This document shows, one piece after another, positions 12,938 through 14,530 of a stretch of DNA of 16,162 nt (position 1 is the first letter of the stretch; each line of letters starts with the position of its first letter). Position numbers and translations under genes: made by a program. Source of the stretch: Spirochaetia bacterium (GTDB lineage: Bacteria > Spirochaetota > Spirochaetia > PWKH01); NCBI GenBank assembly GCA_021736545.1, contig JAIPFS010000012.1, positions 1 through 16,162 of the forward strand, given 5' to 3'. The notes beneath the pieces are model-generated. The model worked only from the letters and a program-made list of their open reading frames with translations. It was not told where the DNA came from and made no database searches.

Positions 12938-12951
12938 CTACAAAAATGTAG
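12938..12951. promoter_or_regulatory. Palindrome CTACAAAAATGTAG just before the NifA-like gene
   Basis: Perfect arms CTACA/TGTAG around AAAA, ending 8 bp before the ATG and touching the ribosome binding site AGGAT. The same 12-bp core recurs at the 3' end of this gene. A factor bound here would block transcription or early elongation, which suggests autoregulation. Confidence 0.6.
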
Positions 12952-12959
12952 GATAAGCT

Positions 12960-14501
12960 ATGAATCGGATAAAAGAGTTAACTGTACTATTTGAAATCAG
13001 TCGTATTTTAGATGAGACTAAGGATTTGAAGGAGATCATCTCTCCTATTCTGACAACTCTTTCTGATAACTCTCCCCTTACCCGTGGTGCAATTACCTTG
13101 CTTAACCGAGAATCCGGGCAGATCCTTATTGAATCTGCAATTGGATTAACAGACAAACAGAAAGACCGGGGAAAGTATAAAATCGGCGAAGGTGTTACGG
13201 GTCAAGTTGTTAAATCCGGAAAGCCGATTATAATTTCCGACATTGCTGAAGCGGAAACCTATGCTAACAAGACTAAAGCAGAAGATAACTCAAAAGCTAA
13301 TCAGGAGAAATTGGCATTTGTCTGTGTTCCTATTAAGATAGATAAAGAGACCATTGGAACCTTCAATATCACAATTCCTACGGAACATGAAGGGGAACTG
13401 GAGGAGTATGTAAAACTGCTTTCCGTAATCTCTTCCATGATAGCCAGGGCGGTTAAACTCCGTCAGGAAATGATGGAAGAGACTGAACGTCTTATCGCTG
13501 AAAATATACGTTTGAAAACCCAGTTAAAAGAGCAGTTTCTGCCGAATAATATTATCGGCCGTTCACAGGCAATGCAGGAAGTATTTGATCTCATTGGGCA
13601 GGTCTGTAAAAGTGAAGCTACCGTTCTTATTCGCGGTGACAGCGGGACCGGCAAGGAACTTGTTGCTCAGGAGATCCATTATAATAGTTTCCGTGCCGAT
13701 AAACCCTTTGTAAAAGTTAATTGTGCAGCACTTCCGGAAAGTATTATTGAAAGTGAGCTTTTCGGTCATGAAAAGGGCGCTTTTACTGGTGCCATGGCAC
13801 CCAGAAAGGGTCGTTTTGAATTAGCCGACGGCGGGACCCTGTTTCTTGATGAAATCGGGGAACTCTCTCCTCAAATGCAGGTTAAACTGCTTCGTGTCCT
13901 CCAGGAACAGGAGTTTGAAAGAGTCGGCGGAACAAGAACCATAAAAATAGATGTGCGCATAGTCGCTGCCACAAACCGAAATCTGGAAGAGGAAATAAAA
14001 AGTCGACAATTTCGTGAGGACCTCTATTACCGTTTGAATGTCTTTCCTATCCACATTCCCCCTCTACGGGAGCGTAAAAGCGATATTATGCTCCTTTGTG
14101 ATCATTTTATCGAAAAATACAATAAACGTAATCACCGAAATGTAAAGCGTATTACGAGTTCCGCAATTGATCTTTTTATGAGTTATCACTGGCCTGGAAA
14201 TGTGCGGGAACTGGAAAACTGTATTGAACGCGCTGTCCTGTTAAGTACTGATCGGGTTATCCATGCCTACCATCTTCCTCCCAGCCTGCAGTCAGCTGAA
14301 TCATCAAACACAGCTTATGAAAAGACCCTTAAGCGAGCTGTCGAGGATTTAGAACTGGACTTAATTAAAGATGCTCTTAAAACAAACCAGGGAAATTCCG
14401 CAAAAGCTGCACGTCAGCTCGGTATAACCGACCGAATTATGGGTTTGAGAATCAAAAAGTATCAAATCGATACGAGCACATATAAACATACAAAAATGTA
14501 G
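12960..14501 (+). CDS. nifA: NifA-like sigma-54-dependent transcriptional activator
   Basis: Enhancer-binding protein that uses ATP hydrolysis to open sigma-54 promoters, here most likely those of ammonium-uptake genes. Residues 8-165 are a GAF domain with the NifA-type GEGVTGQVVKSGKPIIISDIAE (77-98). A coiled-coil linker (~165-195) follows. The AAA+ domain has Walker A GDSGTGKE (226-233), GAFTGA for sigma-54 contact (273-278), Walker B GTLFLDEIG (292-300), arginine region REDLYYRLNVFPI (352-364) and WPGNVRELEN (411-420). The C-terminal HTH (~476-503) ends MGLRIKKYQID, as in NifA. There is no receiver domain, so the signal enters through GAF or a partner; in some NifA proteins GAF binds 2-oxoglutarate. 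The alphaproteobacterial Cys linker is absent. AGGAT lies 6 bp before the ATG. No nif structural gene is present, so the name means family, not proven role in nitrogen fixation. Confidence 0.88.
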   Translation: MNRIKELTVLFEISRILDETKDLKEIISPILTTLSDNSPLTRGAITLLNRESGQILIESAIGLTDKQKDRGKYKIGEGVTGQVVKSGKPIIISDIAEAETYANKTKAEDNSKANQEKLAFVCVPIKIDKETIGTFNITIPTEHEGELEEYVKLLSVISSMIARAVKLRQEMMEETERLIAENIRLKTQLKEQFLPNNIIGRSQAMQEVFDLIGQVCKSEATVLIRGDSGTGKELVAQEIHYNSFRADKPFVKVNCAALPESIIESELFGHEKGAFTGAMAPRKGRFELADGGTLFLDEIGELSPQMQVKLLRVLQEQEFERVGGTRTIKIDVRIVAATNRNLEEEIKSRQFREDLYYRLNVFPIHIPPLRERKSDIMLLCDHFIEKYNKRNHRNVKRITSSAIDLFMSYHWPGNVRELENCIERAVLLSTDRVIHAYHLPPSLQSAESSNTAYEKTLKRAVEDLELDLIKDALKTNQGNSAKAARQLGITDRIMGLRIKKYQIDTSTYKHTKM

Positions 14502-14530
14502 CTCGACTCTTAATATCTGACATTTTTGTA
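14488..14530. promoter_or_regulatory. Pair of enhancer-like palindromes upstream of amtB
   Basis: TACAAAAATGTA (14489-14500, overlapping the regulator's stop codon) and GACATTTTTGTA (14519-14530, the reverse complement with one change) have centres 30 bp apart, close to three helical turns. They lie about 255 and 225 bp upstream of the predicted sigma-54 transcription start. The pair could also fold as an AT-rich 11-bp RNA hairpin, but no T-run follows. Confidence 0.6.

Follow-up and report, generated by a model that had tools for sequence, protein, structure and literature searches.

A TACA-N4-TGTA dyad as the probable operator of a NifA-like regulator of nitrogen assimilation in Spirochaetia

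Introduction

The closest described counterpart of the system examined here is AnfA of R. capsulatus, for which mutation and gel shift have shown binding to two TAC-N6-GTA sites that precede a sigma-54 promoter; the available portion of the same source gives GTAC-N6-GTAC as the VnfA site and TGT-N10-ACA as the NifA site, and describes a cysteine motif in the linker between the AAA+ and helix-turn-helix (HTH) domains of many NifA proteins (PMC7294313). We analyzed a stretch of 16,162 nucleotides from a Spirochaetia bacterium (contig JAIPFS010000012.1; the whole stretch is hereafter the window), in which the dyad TACA-N4-TGTA stands before and after a gene for a NifA-like sigma-54 activator and upstream of the ammonium transporter gene amtB. 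In our assessment, this dyad is very probably the operator through which the activator drives amtB from an enhancer pair and represses its own gene from a further copy, termed O1.

The resemblance to AnfA is close, as far as the available portion of PMC7294313 describes that system: TACA-N4-TGTA is itself a TAC-N6-GTA, two dyads per promoter are found here as well, and in both cases two sites, both required for full activation in the AnfA system, lie between the gene for the regulator and the target gene. Both regulators are GAF-AAA+-HTH proteins of the NifA group. Because the core of the motif is a form of the AnfA TAC-N6-GTA, it is not without precedent and its novelty is lowered. The systems differ in their targets, which are the Fe-nitrogenase (anfH) in the available account of AnfA but ammonium uptake and glutamine synthesis here, and in three features of the present system, namely the fixed inner A/T, a spacing of mostly 30/31 base pairs (bp) and the extra dyad in the regulator's sigma-70 promoter.

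The classical NifA enhancer is likewise a dyad for a NifA-family activator upstream of sigma-54 promoters, but the half-sites and spacing of TGT-N10-ACA and the recognition helix of the protein differ from those found here. NtrC systems share the driving of amtB-glnK and glnA from sigma-54 promoters, and at its own operon NtrC acts in addition as the repressor of a sigma-70 promoter; it is, however, a phosphorylated response regulator, and in the present protein a GAF domain replaces the receiver domain. Within the spirochaetes, EbpA of Leptospira is described in the available part of a review as a GAF-type sigma-54 activator that binds upstream of amtB, is needed for amtB and serves growth on scarce nitrogen (PMC12655853). 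It thus resembles the window regulator in domain type and in its tie to amtB, but it is FhlA-like with two GAF domains, and the comparison is one of description rather than of binding sequence. DVU1949 of Desulfovibrio vulgaris, a one-component sigma-54 activator for which the accessible portion of PMC4641369 proposes autoregulation and control over nine operons of nitrogen metabolism and transport, offers a parallel in autoregulation and in its nitrogen regulon, compared again by description and not by motif. In termite-gut spirochaetes, the consulted part of PMC13067680 reports a nifADHKENB operon in one species and Amt in all, a pattern that fits a nif-side NifA separate from the amt side. 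The portions available of a sigma-54 survey (PMC12316311) and of a Clostridiales study (PMC6615313) hold nothing on a TACA-N4-TGTA site, and a literature search whose coverage left out most subscription journals found no report of such an operator or of a spirochaete NifA regulon. A search for the literal TACANNNNTGTA also gave no match, but little weight attaches to this, since published motifs take many forms and also appear in figures.

Operator copies at the nifA-like locus

The elements of the locus are as follows.
12926..12931, plus strand: -35 element TTGCAT of the predicted sigma-70 promoter of the nifA-like gene, at an offset conserved in 36 sites aligned on the operator
12939..12950: operator O1, TACAAAAATGTA, exact match; predicted self-repression site in the sigma-70 spacer, overlapping the -10 element
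12949..12954, plus strand: -10 element TAGGAT, whose leading TA is the final TA of operator O1; the ATG lies 5 nucleotides downstream
12960..14501, plus strand: NifA-like sigma-54 activator gene, 513 amino acids, with GAF, AAA+ and Fis-type HTH domains; proposed operator binder
14489..14500: operator O2, TACAAAAATGTA, exact match, overlapping the nifA stop; upstream half of the putative amtB enhancer pair
14519..14530: operator O3, GACATTTTTGTA, 11 of 12 positions, 30 bp after O2; second half of the putative enhancer pair
14723..14738, plus strand: amtB sigma-54 promoter -24/-12, TGGCACACTCCTTGCA, no mismatches
14780..16102, plus strand: amtB ammonium transporter gene (PF00909, 428.9 bits)

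The initial annotation, made on the window by itself, had pointed to thirteen identical bases before the start codon and at the stop codon of the regulator gene, and to an inverted copy 30 bp farther on. Both descriptions hold: TACAAAAATGTAG is common to 12939-12951 and 14489-14501, and O3, which reads TACAAAAATGTC on the minus strand, matches at 11 of 12 positions (14519-14530) with a start-to-start distance of 30 bp from O2. The first two bases of the TAG stop codon (14499-14501) are the last two of O2. The proposed enhancer distance to the amtB promoter is borne out as well, since TGGCACACTCCTTGCA, the sole zero-mismatch sigma-54 match within the window, begins 193 bp beyond O3. The motif is indeed not the classic NifA site, and no TGT-N10-ACA occurs near the nifA-like/amtB locus, the only two in the window lying at 8752 and 10760.

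With up to two mismatches, TACAAAAATGTA has 6 matches in the window against a shuffle mean of 2.54 (9 of 200 shuffles reach 6), and TACA-N4-TGTA with up to one mismatch has 11 against 4.68 (0 of 200 reach 11). Judged on the window by itself, the palindrome excess is modest. This modest excess, together with the bracketing of a single gene by 13 identical bases, is what could be said for reading the copies as the flanking direct repeat or scar of an insertion, or as a chance repeat in AT-rich DNA; chance was rejected because of evidence from relatives outside the window, which we regard as decisive and which is given below.

The inverted repeat at 14489-14530 could in principle be an RNA hairpin acting as a terminator or attenuator behind nifA, as its 11-base arms are fully complementary and 20 bases apart. 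Against this, the predicted fold is weak (z of -1.55 on the plus strand and -1.65 on the minus strand), terminator prediction calls none there, and Rfam has no match in the window. Furthermore, the inner bases of the two dyads are often non-complementary in relatives (e.g., L122), and three related loci (L130, L132 and L135) have, as judged by eye, a separate hairpin with a T run further downstream. We therefore consider a hairpin function very improbable.

Conservation of the dyad beside nifA

To extend the analysis to relatives, the spirochaetes were entered through a contig scan with two peptides common to many activators, which returned few of them, and an orthologue search then matched 43 of 46 genomes of the order at E 1e-160 and 28 of 394 genomes of the class Spirochaetia at E 1e-215. 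The genome-wide motif scans were run in relatives (loci are L-numbered and genomes G-numbered). TACA-N4-TGTA recurs directly before nifA and between nifA and amtB in many of their loci, and amtB is followed by glnK in several (e.g., L155, L160 and L209). The TACA and TGTA arms stay constant across relatives, while the inner four bases vary by species.

To rank the dyad against alternatives, 3,840 dyads (256 half-sites, gaps 0-14) were compared with 30 dinucleotide-preserving shuffles, using loci with nifA matches of at least 57% identity that start by residue 8; five named loci, non-spirochaete or nifH-side, were excluded. Sufficient flank was present in 70 loci before and 72 after the gene, and removal of near-duplicates left 58 and 68, respectively. 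TACA-N4-TGTA ranks first of the 3,840 on both sides, occurring in 32 of 58 loci before nifA (shuffle mean 0.1) and in 38 of 68 after it (shuffle mean 0.5), whereas the shuffle maximum for any dyad was 6 loci before and 8 loci after the gene. As CTAC-N6-GTAG and CCTA-N8-TAGG are among the next-ranked dyads, the full site is CCTACA-N4-TGTAGG. Among the non-spirochaete NifA homologues within L002-L080, few dyads lie close to the gene (L012 and L033).

These results make it close to certain that the dyad is a conserved regulatory site. The initial annotation had named a flanking repeat from a past insertion as its own alternative, and this is rejected: the inner bases at both places differ among relatives with the arms kept, a drift that rules out an insertion scar. 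Together with the first rank against shuffles and the recurrence of the dyad at genes elsewhere with a fixed 30/31-bp spacing, this leaves the scar or chance-repeat explanation with almost no likelihood.

Paired dyads, sigma-54 promoters and target genes

Pairs were sought as two TACA-N4-TGTA dyads separated by any gap of 8-38 bp, with the reversed pattern as a control. Among the 28 genomes with close orthologues, 14 carry pairs, and all 16 places have a gap of 18 or 19, compared with none for the control; across the class, 68 of 394 genomes carry pairs at 97 places, compared with 9 for the control (the totals of 97 and 9, like the phylum-sample spacing counts, were summed by hand from tables). 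Start-to-start spacing among the 75 places listed of the 97 was 30/31 bp in 61, 29 bp in 3 and 40/41 bp in 4, with the remaining 7 scattered. The favored spacings correspond to three or four helical turns, and the window pair stands at 30 bp. In a phylum sample, 20 of 198 genomes have a pair, with 30/31-bp spacing at 14 of the 23 places listed, and the control pattern occurs 4 times.

Promoters and targets were counted for 75 distinct pairs (loci L146-L221), 69 of them in phase (28-31, 40 and 41 bp) and 6 out of phase. A sigma-54 promoter lies 30-320 bp away from 58 of the 69 in-phase pairs, compared with 49 of 2133 positions drawn at random from these loci, although this control is lenient because the random positions are mostly intragenic; the link of the motif to sigma-54 promoters, which the initial annotation had proposed to examine by scanning, is thus present in the relatives. 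Two of the 6 out-of-phase pairs also have a sigma-54 match nearby. The genes facing the 69 in-phase pairs include amtB (28), glutamine synthetase III (21), glutamine synthetase I (7, three by Pfam and four by very similar N-terminal sequence), nifA (3) and family-3 solute-binding proteins (2). Accordingly, amtB or glutamine synthetase genes stand behind 56 of the 69 pairs, and 61 are accounted for when the solute-binding proteins and nifA are included. The earlier proposal of a private operator that activates amtB is therefore supported in its assignment to amtB but too narrow in scope, as the regulon comprises glutamine synthetases III and I and other genes as well. Pairs of other spacing precede a class-II glutamine amidotransferase resembling glutamate synthase (L179) and a partial glutamate synthase truncated at the end of its stretch (L188; 658 bits against a cut-off of 1047). 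In two genomes (G076 and G111), the pair lies ahead of amtB on a different contig from nifA, and hence the link between regulator and pair is probably in trans.

Pairs were also found in 2 of 20 non-spirochaete genomes. One (G558) has two pair places, one of them at 30 bp, along with one control match. The other, a member of the Desulfobacteraceae (G559; L243 and L245), has no control match and two pairs, each spaced at exactly 30 bp; one precedes amtB and the other a porin-like gene (TIGR02001, 23.5 bits, below the cut-off of 47.15).

Several individual loci show further arrangements. Three dyads at 30-bp steps precede glutamine synthetase III at L166 and L217 (genome G109, contig 68, 3121-3192). 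At L200 of genome G101 (about 2005-2400), a pair spaced by 31 bp is accompanied by a consensus sigma-54 promoter (2181), and no open reading frame of at least 80 amino acids lies behind them. A GC-rich segment and a run of T come next, and this element is a possible nitrogen-controlled small RNA. The genes at L189 (972-1877) and L191 (1174-1824), which stand behind a pair and a sigma-54 promoter, encode proteins with no Pfam match and exported-looking N-termini, and are candidates for further members of the regulon.

The regulator and its nitrogenase-side paralogues

The window regulator contains GAF, Sigma54_activat (PF00158, 255.7 bits), AAA_lid_14 and HTH_8 (35.9 bits) domains. It scores 561.5 bits with the NCBIfam nifA profile TIGR01817, above the cut-off of 528.85, in an alignment that stops at residue 451, before the HTH, and 360.4 bits with the NtrC profile TIGR01818, below the cut-off of 558.6; it has a GAF in place of a receiver domain. 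The GAFTGA loop occupies residues 273-278 and does not vary among 23 aligned relatives. The protein has cysteines only at 122, 216, 255, 380 and 421, and none of these falls in the linker that joins AAA+ and HTH. The recognition helix reads TDRIMGLRI in the window and TERIMGLRV in many relatives, compared with TPRQIAYRI in proteobacterial homologues.

Since nifH at E 0.001 matches all 80 genomes and all 14 controls because of other P-loop proteins, counting was restricted to matches above the curated cut-off. Such matches come from 21 of the 80 genomes, and the 8 nearest relatives have none; in the 59 genomes with no nifH over the cut-off, absence is uncertain for any single genome because many are incomplete drafts. 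No NtrC over the TIGR01818 cut-off was found in 26 relatives; of 14 control genomes, 12 match the profile and 1 does so above the cut-off. The regulator thus scores as NifA yet most likely does the work of NtrC.

In nifH-bearing genomes, 15 second NifA paralogues were examined, of which 9 share a stretch with nifH; paralogue and nifH occur together in 9 of 14 nifH stretches, some of which were picked because a paralogue was known there. The 13 with a readable HTH carry the helices GLTNRM.G.R (6), GITYRQ.G.R (4), the amt-like SERIMGLR (1) or others (2). At L246, L247, L248 and L250, the second paralogue lies beside nifH and has the helix GLTNRMIG.R. Upstream regions of nifH were analyzed at 19 of 20 loci, the upstream of one being too short. 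Their top dyad is TTAC-N6-GTAA (9 of 19 loci), and a TAC-N6-GTA of any kind occurs in 17 of the 19, compared with 478 of 3000 random stretches, with five pairs spaced 39-41 bp (L229, L231, L233, L234 and L237). The nifH-side paralogue with its GLTNRMIG.R helix and TAC-N6-GTA pairs would form a sister regulator-site system for nitrogenase.

Assignment of the dyad to the regulator

With orthologue presence defined at E 1e-125 (156 of 394 class genomes), a pair occurs in 60 of the 156 genomes with an orthologue and in 8 of the 238 without one (Fisher p 8e-20, a value that overstates independence because genomes of one class share ancestry). This co-occurrence has to be weighed against a different reading, in which the dyads serve as the operator of another factor, be it a different sigma-54 activator or a nitrogen repressor of unrelated type, that has the NifA-like gene as just one of its targets. 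Each of 26 genomes has at least 15-44 AAA+ activator matches, so another of these proteins could read the site; in 8 genomes, a pair is present with the orthologue undetected, although in two of them the gene is cut at a contig end (L195 of G240 and L182 of G141); and in G559, the 30-bp pairs stand alongside a NifA homologue with a different recognition helix.

These points count against assigning the dyad to the NifA-like protein, as do several others. No exact pair is found in 96 of the 156 orthologue-bearing genomes, and no exact dyad in 26 of 58 loci before nifA and 30 of 68 after it; 8 of the 69 in-phase pairs face other or unclear genes or none, and the single mismatch of O3 falls in an arm. 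On the nitrogenase side, TACA-N4-TGTA itself occurs in 4 of the 19 nifH regions and the nifH-side paralogue of L261 is the one with the amt-like helix, and while helix and site tend to shift together, the mapping is not one to one.

The reading with another factor is nonetheless unlikely in view of that co-occurrence. The dyads adjoin the NifA-like gene itself, including a self-operator, and TACA-N4-TGTA is absent from the up to 260 bp before their own gene in 14 of 15 second paralogues. The TAC-N6-GTA core also suits the NifA/AnfA/VnfA group, as far as the sites of that group are given in the available portion of PMC7294313. Taken together, these sequence comparisons make it likely, with considerable confidence on our part, that the NifA-like protein reads the dyad.

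The operator copy before nifA

The initial annotation had placed a copy at the regulator's own ribosome binding site. The position before the start codon stands, but the surroundings are not those of a ribosome binding site only, because O1 lies in the spacer between the -35 and -10 elements of a predicted sigma-70 promoter. This promoter was seen by aligning loci on the operator (nifA matches of at least 53%, nine named loci excluded and duplicates removed); of the 55 sites obtained, the 36 exact ones alone were profiled, and L148, a wrong pick whose dyad is downstream of the gene, was kept among the 36. The aligned sites share CTTG at -14 to -11 (C 75%, T 100%, T 92%, G 97%) and a -10 element whose sixth-position T (+15) is present in 97% and fifth-position A in 78%. 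The consensus is TTGNNN-N17-TAKKAT, with the operator within the spacer and its final TA opening the -10 element; at L130, L132, L133 and L135, for example, the -35 is TTGCAT and the -10 is TATGAT. A sigma-70 promoter scan of the window did not list the nifA promoter, which accordingly rests on conservation and not on consensus score, being seen only via the operator alignment.

In the closest group, the ATG follows the -10 element by 5-7 nucleotides, and this direct succession suggests a leaderless message; the nifA-like mRNA of the window may be of this kind. The window sequence also contains an AGGA that could alternatively act as a Shine-Dalgarno element. L111 and L114 have, by eye, a longer leader with a Shine-Dalgarno element.

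A site that overlaps the spacer and the -10 element usually occludes polymerase. The position of O1 suggests that bound protein would exclude sigma-70 polymerase, and repression of the nifA-like gene from O1 is probable. The opposite sign of control, in which protein on the copy before nifA would assist sigma-70 polymerase or act on a sigma-54 promoter close by, draws on the three in-phase pairs that face nifA in an enhancer-like arrangement. Within 30-320 bp of those three pairs, however, no sigma-54 match is present, and the common arrangement is a single dyad overlapping both the spacer and the -10 of the conserved sigma-70 promoter, so that we regard activation from this copy as rather improbable.

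Proposed mechanism and implications

In the proposed mechanism, the activator would bind to each dyad as a dimer, using the Fis-type HTH at its C-terminus. The enhancer would consist of two dyads that lie on the same side of the DNA at a distance of three helical turns, and from there the bound activator would loop to sigma-54 polymerase at the amtB promoter, driving amtB, and probably also glnK, under nitrogen shortage. The lone dyad in the nifA spacer would let the protein block ordinary polymerase and thereby limit its own synthesis. The signal is presumed to be nitrogen status, perhaps conveyed to the GAF domain by 2-oxoglutarate or GlnK. Across related spirochaetes, this protein would run amtB-glnK, glutamine synthetases III and I and amino-acid uptake, replacing NtrC.

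A broader proposal, which we favor only slightly over its negation, is that in much of Spirochaetia a NifA/AnfA-group activator rather than NtrC is the master switch of nitrogen assimilation, reading AnfA-like phased dyad pairs and being itself expressed from a sigma-70 promoter with a dyad in the spacer (leaderless in the window's closest group). A duplicate with shifted helix and dyad (TTAC-N6-GTAA, pairs about 40 bp apart) would run nitrogenase, such that one duplication would have split assimilation from fixation. The findings as a whole provide the spirochaete NifA-like proteins with a defined DNA site and a list of targets, and with a likely role, that of NtrC. They also bear on annotation, as the label "nif-specific activator NifA" would mislead the inference of nitrogen fixation from metagenomes, given that spirochaetes with no nifH over the cut-off carry such proteins. 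The natural paralogue pair, with parallel changes in helix and site, is useful for studying how Fis-type HTH domains select sequence, and the autoregulatory design yields simple, direct predictions.

Additional features of the window

Between amtB and the expected glnK, the segment 16103-16150 contains TACATAAATTGTA, with a gap of 5 rather than 4, plus AAAATGTA half-sites, which perhaps represent a decayed or variant dyad. Elsewhere in the window, an 11-bp tandem repeat of TTTGAGTGCTA in 4.3 copies occupies 10148-10207, ahead of the gene at 10259, and two overlapping weak sigma-54-like matches at these positions arise from the repeat.

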